Assembly (NCBI GenBank): GCA_020350305.1
Contig: CP070709.1
Location: forward strand, 1,137,429-1,144,346
Source: Candidatus Bathyarchaeota archaeon
Lineage (GTDB): Archaea; Thermoproteota; Bathyarchaeia; Bathyarchaeales; Bathyarchaeaceae
Direction of reading: 5' to 3'
DNA length: 6,918 nucleotides
Shown here: in pieces, positions 13 to 6,918 of the stretch
Layout: every line of letters begins with the position of its first letter
Numbering within the stretch: position 1 is the stretch's first letter
The notes under the pieces: model-generated
Database searches by the model: none
Told to the model about the DNA's origin: nothing
The model's input: the letters and a program-made list of their open reading frames with translations, nothing else
Position numbers and translations under genes: made by a program

Positions 13-104
13 GGGCCCGTAGCTCAGCTAGGTTAGAGCGACAGAAATTTTCCTTGTCGAAGCTCATAACCTGTTGGTCGGGAGTTCAAGTCTCCCCGGG
101 CCCA
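13..104 (+). tRNA. tRNA with CAT anticodon (probably Ile2, possibly elongator Met), with intron
   Basis: A complete cloverleaf can be drawn once a 17-nt intron (45-61) is removed, giving a 75-nt mature tRNA. The acceptor stem GGGCCCG/CGGGCCC (13-19 with 97-103) is perfect and the discriminator is A104. The D stem is GCTC/GAGC (22-25 with 36-39). The spliced anticodon stem is ACAGG/CCTGT around loop CTCATAA (63-69). The T stem is GGGAG/CTCCC around TTCAAGT. CCA is not encoded. A CAT anticodon can mean initiator Met, elongator Met, or Ile2 whose C34 is modified to agmatidine. The initiator is unlikely because initiator-specific stem features are absent. From memory, the GGGCCCG acceptor stem with A73 looks more like archaeal tRNA-Ile than elongator Met, but this is not settled. 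Only 12 nt of upstream sequence is visible, so its promoter cannot be judged. Confidence 0.9.
45..61 (+). other. Non-canonical tRNA intron at position 30/31 with bulge-helix-bulge splice sites
   Basis: The intron interrupts the 5' strand of the anticodon stem after tRNA position 30, not at the usual 37/38. Removing 45-61 restores five Watson-Crick pairs. The splice sites fold as a bulge-helix-bulge. A 4-bp helix CGAC/GTCG (39-42 with 56-59) is flanked by 3-nt bulges AGA (43-45) and AAG (60-62), with outer helix GAG/CTC (36-38 with 63-65). Cutting between the second and third bulge nucleotides on each side yields exactly this intron. This is the archaeal splicing-endonuclease rule. The inner helix is weak: two A-T pairs and a short loop. 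Confidence 0.85.
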
Positions 105-1611: not shown

Positions 1612-2388
1612 CTACTCTCTAATGGTTTTACGTGCGAAAGTGATGTAGCCAGTGTGCCCTGTCATCAAGGTTTCAGGCCGTGTCTTTCCTTTCATGATTT
1701 GCATTCGCCGCATCAAACACTCAACGGTTTCAATGGCCACGAACCCGCTTTCTTTTAAAGCTTCAACGGTTTTCATGACTTGATCGATCGTGGGACTGAA
1801 AGAGACAAGGGTGCCGCTCCCCTTCAAAGCCAAATAAGCGTGGGAAATAACCAGCCATGGAGTTGCTAGGTCAAGAATGACAGCATCTACATCCTGCTCA
1901 TCTATACCCTCTGTAACATCTTTGTTTTTGAGCTCCACATATTCCGATACACCGGCTCTCTCCAAGTTTCTAGACGCCGTCTCCATGAACTCTTGTCGAA
2001 CCTCGTAGCTGTAGATGAATCCTTCTGGTTTGACATAAAATGCAAGAGCAGTGGTAAGCGCTCCGGTTCCAGTGCCCGCTTCAACAATGCGACTGCCTGG
2101 GCCGGCTCCGCTGAACATGACAATGAGAGCAATGTCCTTTGGATACGTTATCTGCGTCTTCCTAAACATCTTGAAAACATAATCTCGTAAGATGGGTTTT
2201 AGAGCCACAAATTCGACACCCATGCTACTCGTTACACATGTTCCATATTCCTTTCCAATCAACTCGTCCAGTTCAATGAAGCCTTTATGAGTGTGAAAAC
2301 TTTTCTCCTTCTCCACCATAACCAGATACGTTCTTTTTCGATCGAGATAGAGCAGAACGCGGTCTCCCTCGCTAATAGTTTGCGACAA
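1612..2388 (-). CDS. trmI: tRNA (adenine-N1)-methyltransferase, TrmI family (m1A57/58)
   Basis: This 258-residue cytosolic enzyme transfers methyl from S-adenosylmethionine to N1 of adenine 58 in the tRNA T loop; archaeal members also modify A57. Residues 1-70 form the small N-terminal beta domain, including the FHTHKG motif at 31-36. A linker with QITYPKD (79-85) leads to the Rossmann methyltransferase fold. Motif I EAGTGTGALT (103-112) binds the cofactor, and E129 in YSYEVR should hold its ribose. D173 in DLATPW (173-178) matches the catalytic Asp motif usually written DLPxPW. RPETLMTGHTGYITFARK near the C-terminus is the family's closing signature. Length is normal. The start is TTG at 2388: an in-frame stop lies three codons upstream, and the next Met (residue 24) would remove the first strands of the N-terminal domain. 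It lies 59 bp downstream of the aldolase-Fae gene on the same strand, so read-through is possible. Confidence 0.93.
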   Translation of the reverse strand: MSQTISEGDRVLLYLDRKRTYLVMVEKEKSFHTHKGFIELDELIGKEYGTCVTSSMGVEFVALKPILRDYVFKMFRKTQITYPKDIALIVMFSGAGPGSRIVEAGTGTGALTTALAFYVKPEGFIYSYEVRQEFMETASRNLERAGVSEYVELKNKDVTEGIDEQDVDAVILDLATPWLVISHAYLALKGSGTLVSFSPTIDQVMKTVEALKESGFVAIETVECLMRRMQIMKGKTRPETLMTGHTGYITFARKTIRE

Positions 2389-2447: not shown

Positions 2448-3926
2448 CTACGGCGTATACTTGAAGGGGTGTTTAGCCCTCTCCTTATTCTCTATGATTT
2501 CTCCAACCGTAGGCCTACCCTCCATCGCCCTCCGTATAGCATGCCTCATAGCCTTGTAATTGCTGATATAAACTCGTTGACGATCCACAGCAGTCGGATG
2601 AACAAAAACATTGGCAATGATAATCAAATCCTCAACAGCCCCTTTAGGAATAATTCCGTCCGCCAAGCTATCTGCCACCGCCTTTGCCACACCAGCTTGC
2701 GCCGGACCATAAACCATGCTAGCCTGTCTCATATTCTTAATTGTAACAGTCGGGACAATGAGCGTTACAGGCTTAACAGTAAGGTTAGGCTCCAGAATAG
2801 CGATTAATGGCTCATGCCCAGGCGTCGGGGTAGCCTTGGCCTTCGCATAAGCCTCACCCAGCGGGCCAGTCTTCTTTCCAATCATCAAATCTATATGTGC
2901 AACTTCAGCGCCTTTTCCAGCTAAAGCCTCGCCCACACGTAGATTAAAGTCTCGGATGATTTTGGGCGTGACCTCGATGGCGGCGAAGCGTTCTTCCAAG
3001 ACTTTCTCCTCGATTTCAAATTTGATGGGTTTCGGAGTAATCTTCCCAATCTTTTCCAAGTCAAGACGAAGCTCTTCCCGTGCCTCGTAAGTCAACTCTC
3101 CTCCAACACTCAACGGCATCCTCACGGGACCAACCTTAATTCCCATCATATTCAGCGCCTCTTTCGTTCCCACAGCCCCACTTCTAGCGATTATCCTCGC
3201 AATCTTCTGCACCTTATATTGTAGCCCACGGGCCTTCTTGAGGTCACCTTTCTGAACCGAATTGTAGACATCAACCCACACGTCTGGGATAACATTGGCA
3301 CTCGCCAGTATAGCGCCTGAAGCACCAGCAGCAAGGGCAGATAGAACCACCTCATCGTAACCGCATAAGACATTGATCTTGTCTCTGACTTTCTCCAAGA
3401 CCGCGAGAATGAATTTCAACTCTCCGCTGCTATCTTTTAAGCCAACTATGCTAGGGATTTGTGCAAGATCTTCAACCATCTGCCAACTCAACCAAACTCC
3501 AGTGCACTGGGGAATATTGTAGAGAATAACGGGAAAATCAACCTTGGTTGCAATGGTGTAGAAGTGCTCGTAGATGCCCCGGTCAGTAGGCTTCAGATAA
3601 AACGGCGTCACAACCAGCGCTGCATCTGCACCAGCGTCCTTAGCATACCTTGTCATTTTAAGGGCCTGATCGGTTCCACTCGCACCAGTTCCAGCAACCA
3701 CCGACACTCTGCCATTAACTTCATCCACAACGACGTCAATCAACTTCTTCTTTTCATCTTCTGTAAGATTAACAAACTCACCGGTTGTGCCGCACGGAAC
3801 AACCCCACTCACTCCTCTTTCAATACAGTGGTTGACGAGGTTACGCATTCTTTCCTCATCCAACTCTTTTCCATCTTTAGTGAACGGAGTCACCAAGGCT
3901 GGTAAGATTCCTTCTGGCTTGAACAT
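2448..3926 (-). CDS. Fusion of DapA/NAL-type pyruvate aldolase with formaldehyde-activating enzyme (Fae)
   Basis: This is a 492-residue two-domain protein. Residues 1-296 form a complete Schiff-base aldolase barrel. Visible marks are GTTGE (46-50) for the pyruvate carboxylate, Y136 in LYNIP, and the Schiff-base lysine K164 in GLKDSSG. Residues about 329-492 form a complete Fae, the enzyme that condenses formaldehyde with tetrahydromethanopterin. VGEALAGKGAEVAHIDLMIG includes H344, matching the proposed catalytic His17 of Fae, followed by TIKNMRQASMVYGPAQAGVAKA. The domains share one uninterrupted frame and a charged linker (297-328). True dihydrodipicolinate synthases carry an Arg after the LYN(V/I)P motif that binds the aldehyde substrate; here the sequence is PQCTG, so lysine biosynthesis is unlikely. 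Substrates such as 2-keto-3-deoxy sugar acids or 4-hydroxy-2-oxobutanoate fit better, but this is inference. Start 3926 is chosen for its GGAGG site (3933-3937); an ATG at 4037 would put 37 non-family residues in front and place the promoter inside the gene. Confidence 0.92.
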   Translation of the reverse strand: MFKPEGILPALVTPFTKDGKELDEERMRNLVNHCIERGVSGVVPCGTTGEFVNLTEDEKKKLIDVVVDEVNGRVSVVAGTGASGTDQALKMTRYAKDAGADAALVVTPFYLKPTDRGIYEHFYTIATKVDFPVILYNIPQCTGVWLSWQMVEDLAQIPSIVGLKDSSGELKFILAVLEKVRDKINVLCGYDEVVLSALAAGASGAILASANVIPDVWVDVYNSVQKGDLKKARGLQYKVQKIARIIARSGAVGTKEALNMMGIKVGPVRMPLSVGGELTYEAREELRLDLEKIGKITPKPIKFEIEEKVLEERFAAIEVTPKIIRDFNLRVGEALAGKGAEVAHIDLMIGKKTGPLGEAYAKAKATPTPGHEPLIAILEPNLTVKPVTLIVPTVTIKNMRQASMVYGPAQAGVAKAVADSLADGIIPKGAVEDLIIIANVFVHPTAVDRQRVYISNYKAMRHAIRRAMEGRPTVGEIIENKERAKHPFKYTP

Positions 3927-4078: not shown

Positions 4079-5893
4079 ATGATTGGAGGCTATACCGGAA
4101 ATACTCTCAAAGTAAACCTGACGAAAAGAACAACAGAGACGGAAAAACTAGACAAAAAGATTGCTAGAAAATTCATCGGCGGAAAAGGATTGGGCGCCAA
4201 AATCCTATACGACTCCACAAAACCAGGTATCGACCCTTTCAGCCCTGAAAACCTACTTATCTTCGCCTCAGGTCCATTAACCGCCACGTTAGCTCCCTCA
4301 TCTGCTCGATCTGCTGTTGTAACAAAATCGCCCCTCACAGGAATCTTCTTAGACACACAATTTGGAGGCTTTTTCGGCGTAGAAATGAAACTAGCAGGTT
4401 TTGACTGTGTCGTCATAAATGGTAAAGCCGCCAACCCTACATATCTATGGATTCACGAAAATTCCACTGAACTTATGAACGCCGATGATTTATGGGGTAA
4501 AGGCTGCTTCGAAACCGAAAGAAAACTAAAAGATCATTTGGGCAAAAGAGTTAAAGTAGCCTCTATCGGCCCTGCAGGAGAGCGTCTTGTCCGATATGCA
4601 TGTATCACTTTTGACAAATATAGGCAAGCAGGCCGAGGCGGCGCTGGCGCAGTGATGGGATCTAAAAACCTGAAAGCTATAGTTGTGCATGGCACAGGTA
4701 AGATCAAATATGCTGATCTTGAAGGTTTCAGAGAAGCTACTAAGGTTGCAGGTAAAAGAATCAAAGAGCATCATTTCACTCCCTTGCGAAGGAAATATGG
4801 GACTCCGTTATGGGTTGCCCCCGTGAATGAGGCAGCACTACTTCCAACTAGGAATTTTACAACTGGAGTTTTTGAAGGTGCTGACAACATTTCAGGAGAA
4901 AACATGAGAAGCAAAATTATCACAAAGGACGGAGCATGTTACAATTGCCCTATTGCATGCTGGAAATACAGTCAAGTTGACTCTGGCAAGTATAGAATAG
5001 ACGAGCTCGTTGGCCCCGAGTATGAAACAATTGCATTAATGGGTTCAAACTGCGGCGTAGACTCCATCGAAAACATTGCATACGCAAATCTGTTGTGCGA
5101 CGATCTCGGTTTGGACACCATTTCGACGGGAAACGCAATCGGCTTTGCCATGGAATGCTTTGAAAAAGGCTTAATCAAGAAGGAGGATACAGGAGGTCTT
5201 GGGTTGCGCTTTGGCAACGCAGATGCTGAAATAGAAATGGTGGAAAACATTGCTTATCGAAAAGGATTAGGAAACACACTTGCCGAAGGCGTAAAGAGAG
5301 CAGCTGAAAAACTCGGGGAAGGATCAAAGAGGTTTGCAATACATGTGAAAGGCTTAGAGTTTCCTGGCTATGATCCTAGAGGAGCCTTCGGGATGGCACT
5401 GGCCTACGCAACATCTGACCGTGGTGCCTGTCACCAGAGAGCATGGACCGTTAGTGCAGAGATTCGAGGGCGTTTGACGCCTAGATACTCAACTGAAGGC
5501 AGAGCCAAGTTCGTCAAGAACGCTCAAGATGAAAGAGCGATTTGTTTCTCTCTCGCTCTGTGTGACTTCATGCCACTGAAAACCAAACATTTCACAGAGC
5601 TTCTGAACACTGCAACAGGCTTCAACCTCACAGAAGACGAATACCTGAAAACAGGAGAAAGAATCTGGAACCTAACTAGGCTATTCAATGTCCGTGAGGG
5701 TATAACGCGGAAAGATGATACACTACCACCGCGTATTATGGAAGAACCGTTGCCAGACGGAGTGGCAAAGGGACAGATGATAACCAAAAGGATGCTCAAC
5801 GAGATGCTTGACGAATACTACGCCTTAAGAGTGTGGGATGAAAACGGTATTCCAACTCAGGAGAAGTTGAAGGAACTAGACCTAGCATCTTGA
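4079..5893 (+). CDS. Tungsten-type aldehyde:ferredoxin oxidoreductase (AOR family)
   Basis: This 604-residue cytosolic enzyme should oxidise an aldehyde to its acid, with ferredoxin as electron acceptor, using a tungsten-bispterin centre and one 4Fe-4S cluster. The length is normal for AOR. The N-terminal domain (about 1-205) has the early IGGKGLGAKILYD segment and the pterin-contacting RGGAGAVMGSKNLKAI (186-201). Cluster ligands are C287, C290 and C294 (CX2CX3C), with C495 as fourth. EYE at 314-316 and H452 in SDRGACHQRA match active-site positions of the family. The first pterin motif is DDLGLD (341-346). The second, usually DxxGLC, reads FSLALC (490-495), with Phe replacing Asp. Subfamily (aldehyde, formaldehyde or glyceraldehyde type) cannot be fixed from sequence alone. 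It is transcribed away from the aldolase-Fae gene, suggesting a shared aldehyde pathway. The start is supported by GGAGG at 4064-4068. Confidence 0.94.
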   Translation: MIGGYTGNTLKVNLTKRTTETEKLDKKIARKFIGGKGLGAKILYDSTKPGIDPFSPENLLIFASGPLTATLAPSSARSAVVTKSPLTGIFLDTQFGGFFGVEMKLAGFDCVVINGKAANPTYLWIHENSTELMNADDLWGKGCFETERKLKDHLGKRVKVASIGPAGERLVRYACITFDKYRQAGRGGAGAVMGSKNLKAIVVHGTGKIKYADLEGFREATKVAGKRIKEHHFTPLRRKYGTPLWVAPVNEAALLPTRNFTTGVFEGADNISGENMRSKIITKDGACYNCPIACWKYSQVDSGKYRIDELVGPEYETIALMGSNCGVDSIENIAYANLLCDDLGLDTISTGNAIGFAMECFEKGLIKKEDTGGLGLRFGNADAEIEMVENIAYRKGLGNTLAEGVKRAAEKLGEGSKRFAIHVKGLEFPGYDPRGAFGMALAYATSDRGACHQRAWTVSAEIRGRLTPRYSTEGRAKFVKNAQDERAICFSLALCDFMPLKTKHFTELLNTATGFNLTEDEYLKTGERIWNLTRLFNVREGITRKDDTLPPRIMEEPLPDGVAKGQMITKRMLNEMLDEYYALRVWDENGIPTQEKLKELDLAS

Positions 5894-6003: not shown

Positions 6004-6918
6004 CTAGTATTTGTGCAGGTTCCGAGCCGCAATGAACGCTAGGCCACGCTCAGTGAGAGCTTTGGCAGTCCTGTTCAAAGAGTCATGTTTGTCAAGATAA
6101 TTACTAGTAAACTTTGGCATCAGACCCTGCACAAGTATATCTTTCTTAGGAACGAAGTAATCCAAGATGTCTGACGGATGCTCCCGAGTTGCCTCAATCT
6201 CAGGGACTCCACCCTCATGCTTAGCACTAATGTTCTTCACATCGGCCGCGATTTCCAGAAGTTCCTTCAATCGATCATATGGCTGTCTAACAATACTCTT
6301 GCAGGTCTCCACAATATGATGTTCAATGCGAACAATGTCCTCAAAGTCAAAGGCTTCTCGTATAGAGGCTGATAATTCAATCGTCTCATTATTGACAGAA
6401 TTCGAAAGATTAAAACCAATGAGAGGACTCGTACCATCATCCCGACTGAAGAGCTTTGCAGTCATTAGCGTCCAGAAGCAGGCGTAAGGATTATCATTGC
6501 CCAAGAATACTGAAATTTTGAATTCGATGTCAATTCCAAGTTTGTAGAGCCAGTAGCCCAGCATTACGCTCCCTAGATTTACATTCAATACTTGCTGAAC
6601 GCCGTATTTAGTGTAATAATGAAGGAATTCATCGACCCACTTCAAAGCGTATTCATTTGGCACCCCCACACCTCCGAAATAGCCTGTGATAGTTTCAGGG
6701 CCTCCTAAATGAACGTTTATAGGCAAGCCATCGGGTCCGGGCATAGTTCCTTTTGTATCTAATGTTTCCACGTAGGAAGCACCTATAATTTGCATCGCCG
6801 CTGCGAACGCGAGGATTTCATCATCCTCAACTTGTTCTTTCATGAAGCGGACGCGGATGAAGCGACTAGGCATGAGGTCTTGCTGTGCAATGGCTCTCTT
6901 TGCTTCTTCTATGAACCA
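6004..6918 (-). CDS. Unrecognised protein, C-terminal 304 residues (start beyond window)
   Basis: The frame is open to the window edge: 15 further codons precede the first Met (at 6873), and their translation, WFIEEAKRAIAQQDL, reads like a normal helix. No ribosome-binding site precedes that Met, so it is probably internal. I do not recognise the family. Alternating beta strands and helices (for example IIGASYVETLDTKG, QVLNVNLGSVMLGYWLYKLG, IEFKISVFLGNDNPYA, SPLIGFNLSNSVNNE) suggest a TIM-barrel-like soluble enzyme, but this is a guess from pattern. Notable polar clusters are GNDNPYACFW, RIEHHIVE and KHEGGVPEIEATREHP. No membrane segment or Cys-rich metal motif is seen. It converges on the oxidoreductase gene across a 110-bp gap, so co-regulation with it is not implied. 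Confidence 0.75.
   Translation of the reverse strand, partial: WFIEEAKRAIAQQDLMPSRFIRVRFMKEQVEDDEILAFAAAMQIIGASYVETLDTKGTMPGPDGLPINVHLGGPETITGYFGGVGVPNEYALKWVDEFLHYYTKYGVQQVLNVNLGSVMLGYWLYKLGIDIEFKISVFLGNDNPYACFWTLMTAKLFSRDDGTSPLIGFNLSNSVNNETIELSASIREAFDFEDIVRIEHHIVETCKSIVRQPYDRLKELLEIAADVKNISAKHEGGVPEIEATREHPSDILDYFVPKKDILVQGLMPKFTSNYLDKHDSLNRTAKALTERGLAFIAARNLHKY

Follow-up and report, generated by a model that had tools for sequence, protein, structure and literature searches.

Aldolases of the DHDPS/NAL superfamily typically handle pyruvate, and the formaldehyde-activating enzyme (Fae) handles formaldehyde and tetrahydromethanopterin (H4MPT). Such aldolases form tetramers, and Fae forms pentamers. 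In net terms, serine and ketopantoate hydroxymethyltransferases move a hydroxymethyl group from a methylene-pterin onto a small acid. The known archaeal fusion of Fae is Fae-Hps, in which Fae comes first and is joined to 3-hexulose-6-phosphate synthase (Hps), an aldolase with formaldehyde as its product or substrate, and capture of the formaldehyde on the spot has been proposed for the enzyme of M. hungatei (PMC5241800). A fae-hps gene has been reported in a MAG from microbial mats (PMC7495880), and fae genes have been assigned to Bathyarchaeia as C1 genes in a paper whose passages on these genes name no fusion (PMC11631310). In engineered E. coli, formaldehyde serves as the acceptor for a pyruvate aldolase to give 4-hydroxy-2-oxobutanoate (HOB) and then homoserine (PMC8879981, PMC7918591). 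Work on E. coli has described HOB as a "non-native metabolite" (PMC8879981) and as a "non-natural molecule" (PMC13279387).

We analyzed a 6,918-nucleotide stretch of contig CP070709.1 of a Candidatus Bathyarchaeota archaeon (the whole stretch is hereafter called the window), in which one gene (2448..3926, minus strand) encodes an aldolase joined to Fae. As the original prediction held, the arrangement departs from that of Fae-Hps: Fae is last instead of first, the N-terminal partner is a DHDPS/NAL-superfamily aldolase (PF00701), and Pfam found no Hps domain. The HOB aldolases of the synthetic homoserine cycle, E. coli RhmA and YfaU, share the proposed reaction but are promiscuous class II aldolases used by engineers (PMC8879981, PMC7918591), whereas the fusion is a natural protein with an aldolase of another superfamily and a built-in Fae. 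The proposed net reaction would be the H4MPT counterpart of those of serine and ketopantoate hydroxymethyltransferases, from which the fusion differs in protein family, in its two separate active sites, and in its proposed acceptor, pyruvate. The architecture is visible in the precomputed Pfam annotation of public proteins, so that it is deposited and apparently not discussed; we found no description of it in the open-licence PMC literature searched. The fusion is a real, conserved, and apparently undescribed enzyme architecture.

Domain architecture of the fusion protein

The gene is a single open frame with an ATG at position 3926 and 492 codons plus a stop. The frame extends 37 codons further upstream, which would give 529 aa; the 492-aa start is likely to be right because most of the 120 relatives listed are 492 aa long. 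The N-terminal half is a class I aldolase domain of the DHDPS/NAL superfamily (residues 4-291; 3054..3917, minus strand), which matched PF00701 (DHDPS) with an E value of 1.8e-80 over profile positions 2-287 of 289 and showed 38% identity to the DapA structure 2yxg. The C-terminal half is a Fae domain (residues 331-488; 2463..2936, minus strand), which matched PF08714 over profile positions 1-158 of 159 (E 5.4e-62; 208.9 bits against a cut-off of 27) and the NCBIfam model one_C_fae with 218.3 bits against a cut-off of 118, a margin of 100 bits. Both domains are nearly complete, in agreement with the full length that had been predicted. Between them lies a linker (residues 292-330; 2937..3053, minus strand).

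An AlphaFold2 model of the fusion (mean pLDDT 85, pTM 0.82) consisted of two domains and the linker, with confidence below 50 at residues 302-327, within the linker, and at residues 488-492. A Foldseek search with this model returned DapA 2yxg as the top match (TM 0.95 by target length). Because the best 50 matches, all those listed, were DHDPS/NAL-family proteins, assignment of the Fae fold rests on the sequence match to Fae 1y5y (E 2.3e-37). Lys164 (codon 3435-3437, minus strand) and His344 (codon 2895-2897, minus strand), which the original prediction had named as the key residues of the two domains, were found at these positions by alignment to 2yxg and 1y5y. His344 lies in an AHID motif and is presumably the catalytic His of Fae. 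Lys164, Tyr110, Tyr136, and His344 were invariant across 43 aligned fusions, and Lys164 and His344 were each kept in at least 97% of 71 rows of a larger alignment. Invariant Lys164 and Tyr136, together with the fold match, place the aldolase domain in the DHDPS/NAL superfamily. Taken together, the fusion is real and its two-domain anatomy is confirmed.

Distribution and phylogeny of the fusion family

Two-domain matches were found in 69 of 256 genomes of the class Bathyarchaeia, at 51-96% identity. A chance frame or a local chimaera is very unlikely because relatives in other genomes share the architecture. The closest loci (L001; genome G073) were 95-96% identical, and the closest public protein among the matches listed, also from Candidatus Bathyarchaeota, was 96% identical. 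In a search of 398 genomes drawn from the phylum only, with no class share given for them, matches reached E 1e-80 or better in 20, every one of which belongs to the 256 class genomes. The taxonomic mapping called for earlier places the strong matches of this phylum sample within Bathyarchaeia, and the fusion family is widespread within one archaeal class.

Partial or broken matches occurred in at least five further Bathyarchaeia genomes: partial matches in G045, G062, G071, and G227, and interrupted pieces only in G138. Among the 69 fusion genomes themselves, the match in G076 spans residues 1-457 only, and the fusion of G039 carries one in-frame TGA. Tandem copies of the fusion were seen in G070 and G201 (L113, 6552-9501, minus strand; L116), one of the G201 copies having an in-frame TGA. 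A 707-aa frame in G237 had PF00701 as its sole Pfam match and is hence not another Fae fusion.

We constructed an aldolase tree from 27 fusions (the window protein and 26 picked for spread) and 20 stand-alone aldolases, and a Fae tree from the same 27 fusions and the Fae domains of eight Fae-Hps proteins, with no other Fae; one Fae-Hps row (HPS_L011) was heavily truncated and filled 45% of the columns. The fusions fell on one side of a branch in both trees, with support of 100/99 in the aldolase tree and 100/100 in the Fae tree. This pattern is as would be expected from a single fusion event.

Proposed reaction of the fusion protein

The aldolase domain would hold pyruvate as a Schiff base on Lys164 and would add formaldehyde to it, or remove formaldehyde from the product (pyruvate + HCHO <-> HOB). 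The Fae domain would interconvert formaldehyde and H4MPT with methylene-H4MPT, and the tethering of the two domains would let the toxic formaldehyde pass between the sites, as has been proposed for archaeal Fae-Hps. The net reaction would be pyruvate + methylene-H4MPT + H2O <-> HOB + H4MPT. Fae captures formaldehyde favourably, and the coupled reaction is expected to lie close to balance. Because HOB is the aldol of pyruvate and formaldehyde, formaldehyde is the simplest intermediate that the two domains could share. The analysis establishes the architecture, the conserved residues, the phylogenetic depth, and the co-occurrence patterns; HOB as the substrate, the channelling of formaldehyde, and the use of H4MPT are inferred.

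The two-domain chemistry appears well supported by the anatomy, with HOB as the candidate substrate, and the chemistry of the original prediction, between HOB, pyruvate, and formaldehyde in either direction, is still the most economical reading. We give about an even chance to the fusion being a formaldehyde-channelling, two-step pyruvate hydroxymethyltransferase that works via HOB and methylene-H4MPT. In its favour stand the nearly complete domains with their invariant residues, the lack of a counterpart to Arg138 of DHDPS, the rarity of DapB and the frequency of Mch in fusion genomes, the presence of Fae-Hps beside the fusion, the threonine gene row of genome G223, the joint lack of Hom and Asd in some fusion genomes with ThrB and ThrC, and the precedents of engineered E. 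coli and of Fae-Hps. Counted against it are an aldolase domain that scores above the DapA cut-off, a threonine gene row found in one genome, a lack of Mch matches in 10 of the 69 fusion genomes, and a neighbouring gene, gene6, that is in pieces in genome G002.

A lead from the threonine pathway

In genome G223 (L098, 6281-10726, plus strand), genes for an AbrB-ACT regulator, the fusion, homoserine kinase (thrB), and threonine synthase (thrC) stand consecutively on one strand. The homoserine kinase scored 298 bits with NF002288 (cut-off 194); with TIGR00191 it reached 161 of 168 on a 292-aa frame and passed the cut-off in another search. The threonine synthase scored 376 bits with TIGR00260 (cut-off 167). 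This genome gave no match for homoserine dehydrogenase (Hom; PF00742) and none for Asd at 1e-20, and of its two aspartate kinase (Ask) matches one was below the cut-off. The gene row and the lack of a detected homoserine dehydrogenase suggest homoserine synthesis by the fusion, which in G223 would probably run toward HOB and homoserine for threonine.

We surveyed the threonine route in 80 genomes, comprising 59 of the 69 fusion genomes (10 smaller ones were left out) and 21 hand-picked genomes of the 187 others. Ask was found in 14/59 fusion genomes and 19/21 others, Asd in 8/59 and 17/21, and Hom in 11/59 and 17/21; ThrB exceeded the cut-off in 10/59 and 13/21, and ThrC in 35/59 and 18/21. 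The Hom count at first looked strong for a general replacement of homoserine dehydrogenase by the fusion, but this was rejected, since ThrB, Ask, and Asd were missing together with Hom on the window's side of the family. In the 38 fusion genomes of that side, Ask was found in two, Asd in one, Hom in two, and ThrB in one. Because these enzymes are nearly all absent there, the use of HOB for threonine is not general, and another use of the fusion must exist in these genomes, perhaps a catabolic one with gene6. ThrC-like proteins nevertheless passed the cut-off in 18 of the 38 (G073 to G188). On the contig of G002, a close relative, local tblastn detected neither Ask nor ThrB; it gave only a weak Hom match of 74 residues (E 8e-4) and ThrC-like genes of distant kinship. 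A general role as a substitute for PanB (ketopantoate hydroxymethyltransferase) was likewise rejected, since PanB is present in 23/59 fusion genomes and 3/21 others.

Among genomes with both ThrB and ThrC, Hom was missing in 5 of 10 with the fusion and in 1 of 12 without it; the latter, G235, counts against homoserine replacement. Both Hom and Asd were lacking in four of these 10 fusion genomes (G223, G226, G228, and G239) and in none of the 12 others, with a Fisher p of 0.029 that is uncorrected for kinship and comes from few, related genomes of unknown completeness. The absence of Hom in G226, G228, and G239 is weak evidence because Hom can be divergent or partial in the class, as in G230, where it scored only E 2.4e-7. 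The absence of Asd is weaker still because model TIGR00978 at 1e-20 misses G121, G035, and G216, which all have Ask and Hom, and also the E. coli control. A row of thrB, thrC, a Hom-match frame, and an Ask-match frame occurs in the non-fusion genomes G077 and G164 and in the fusion genomes G039 and G121. G223 is the only clear case that suggests homoserine dehydrogenase replacement. That some archaea make homoserine, and hence threonine, from pyruvate and the C1 unit of methylene-H4MPT through the fusion rather than from aspartate, a transaminase turning HOB into homoserine ahead of the ThrB and ThrC steps, is a tentative and rather unlikely proposal.

Gene neighbourhood and the catabolic direction

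The next gene downstream of the fusion in the window encodes a TrmI/GCD14-family tRNA methyltransferase (1612..2388, minus strand; Pfam). Of 70 fusion loci, 33 have a TrmI gene downstream of the fusion and on its strand, within 700 bases in 32. An aldehyde ferredoxin oxidoreductase (AOR)-family gene diverges from the fusion (4079..5893, plus strand; Pfam), and 9 of 70 loci have a relative of it no more than 7 kb from the fusion. These two neighbours are recurrent and have no evident link to the chemistry. A tRNA-Lys(TTT) gene was seen at window positions 13-104; at 92 bases, it is longer than usual and perhaps contains an intron. At L005 (7211-8167, plus strand) and L092, a PLP-dependent lyase-like gene follows the fusion on its strand after 57-70 bases; that of L005 was below the cut-off of all 25 NCBIfam families listed.

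A conserved neighbour linked to the fusion is gene6 (6004..6918, minus strand), which is cut by the window end and encodes about 430 aa when whole; it is also present at L003 (6545-7843, minus strand). At E 1e-30, gene6 was found in 44 of the 69 fusion genomes and in 6 of the 187 others, one of these six having a broken fusion. It lies within 7 kb of the fusion in 41 of 70 loci, as the immediate upstream divergent neighbour in 25 and, on the fusion's own strand, directly downstream in two (L112 and L114). In G002 it occurs as two incomplete pieces (676186-677292 and 1269679-1270308), one near the fusion and one far from it. Mean column identity was 81% in 28 close relatives, and all 8000 of the 8000 scored database candidates matched. 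Gene6 had no Pfam or NCBIfam match and nothing convincing among PDB sequences (best E 0.24-0.39), and AlphaFold2 on a shallow alignment gave a pLDDT of 41. Six genomes in which no gene6 was detected (G060, G063, G066, G198, G199, and G243) have a different gene, c12, directly beside the fusion (for example, L083, 6001-6933, plus strand). Two of four plasmid relatives of c12 are annotated as U32 family peptidases, and a profile comparison of gene6 with c12 gave an hhalign probability of 27%.

These neighbours bear on a purely catabolic direction, in which HOB (2-keto-3-deoxytetronate), derived from homoserine or a C4 sugar acid, would be cleaved to pyruvate, Fae would feed the formaldehyde into the H4MPT methyl branch, and gene6, or c12 in its place, would supply another step. 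Since the chemistry is the same and the direction alone differs, it overlaps with the hydroxymethyltransferase reading. Gene6 is tied to the fusion by position and co-occurrence, and the window's side of the family is without nearly the whole threonine route. In addition, a gene6 relative on Polaromonas plasmid CP087967.1 (L162, 3744-9281; 54% identity over the whole length) sits in a catabolic-looking set with a stand-alone dapA-family gene, an FAD oxidoreductase gene, a TRAP transporter, and an Ldh-family gene, so that the link between an aldolase and gene6 may be broader than the Fae fusion; in Thermomicrobium, the genes next to a c12 relative include a sugar transporter and a member of the enolase superfamily. 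However, the Polaromonas DapA keeps the DHDPS arginine (YNVPGRT) and is perhaps a regular enzyme of the DHDPS type, the annotated recurrent neighbours (a subset of the neighbour clusters) include no recognised dehydratase, the gene row of G223 is biosynthetic, and neither gene6 nor c12 has an assigned function. As the sole direction we consider catabolism possible and a minority view. Under the hydroxymethyltransferase reading, the fusion may still run toward pyruvate and methylene-H4MPT in the window's lineage.

Other functions considered for the two domains

The DHDPS/NAL superfamily includes many 2-keto-3-deoxy acid aldolases, and the aldolase domain could accept a 2-keto-3-deoxy sugar acid of greater length, such as KDG or KDX, with Fae attached for stability, dosage, or general formaldehyde clearance and no intermediate shared. 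YagE, a KDX aldolase (PMC13279387), was indeed the Foldseek match of rank 49. The archaeal KDG aldolase model NF040954 (Arch_KDGaldase), however, gave 131 bits against a cut-off of 390, the single fusion clade at 51-96% identity argues for functional coupling, and in the other known Fae fusion a formaldehyde intermediate is proposed to be shared (PMC5241800). We therefore regard this explanation as improbable.

Turning to the Fae domain, a Fae match was present in all 10 genomes searched, and nine of them had two, G007 having the new fusion only. Eight frames of the second copies were examined (the ninth, in G004, is cut by N), and the six of these that were tested were all Fae-Hps, with 585-599 bits for NF009833 against a cut-off of 274; the fusion itself scored 185 bits with this model. 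Because fusion and Fae-Hps coexist in 6/6 genomes tested, the fusion is not a stand-in for Fae-Hps. Six of the eight frames (L011-L016, from window-type relatives; L014 partly reads N) have an N-terminal extension that looks helix-turn-helix-like by eye and had no Pfam match in the two tested; L017 and L018 lack it. Mch, which marks the H4MPT pathway, was detected in 59 of the 69 fusion genomes and in 132 of the 187 others. The 10 fusion genomes with no Mch match include G009, a chromosome record; a masked Mch gene is possible, since runs of N occur in these genomes (L014 is an example). A Fae domain that no longer handles formaldehyde, and instead acts on another carbonyl or plays a structural part, would fit the identity of just 52-54% between the window Fae domain and the Fae-Hps matches of G003 and G002, but it is very improbable given that His344 and its surrounding residues are conserved and that the one_C_fae cut-off is passed by 100 bits.

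The aldolase domain resembles DapA in fold, in its Schiff-base lysine, and in Tyr/Thr catalytic residues. It scored 250 bits with the NCBIfam dapA model TIGR00674 (cut-off 206), and the public annotation of the fusion, "4-hydroxy-tetrahydrodipicolinate synthase", matches. In contrast to DapA, it has no arginine at the position of Arg138 (E. coli numbering), which we take to be the second-substrate binding residue of DHDPS. The counterpart of the 2yxg motif YNVPSRT in the window protein is YNIPQCT, with Cys141 (codon 3504-3506, minus strand) at this position. Across 70 rows (the window and 69 loci, with the broken L118 dropped), the residue is C in 46, A in 11, V in 7, L in 4, T in 2, and R in none; of 20 stand-alone relatives belonging to the class, 6 have Arg there. 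DapB was detected in 1 of the 69 fusion genomes and in 88 of the 187 others, counts that are inflated by kinship, and DapA without DapB makes little sense. Ask and Asd, the makers of the second substrate, were not detected in 36 and 37 of the 38 window-side genomes, respectively. That the fusion serves its host as the lysine-pathway DapA (HTPA synthase), carrying Fae as a passenger, is thus disfavoured and can hardly be right, and the fusion is probably not DapA despite its database name.

Implications

The fusion suggests that nature connects pyruvate with one-carbon metabolism in a way not described before. If a conserved enzyme makes or breaks HOB with H4MPT, nature has its own pyruvate-C1 route, and engineers would gain a self-contained formaldehyde-channelling aldolase. 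The public DapA annotation, a name that can mislead lysine-pathway reconstructions, would then be corrected. If the homoserine-from-pyruvate reading is true, the aspartate-semialdehyde branch would be dispensable, as G223 suggests, and the fusion would be a natural counterpart of the synthetic homoserine pathway. For archaea, the proposed reaction would add a formaldehyde-handling enzyme beside Fae-Hps, and the metabolic reading of Bathyarchaeia would change.
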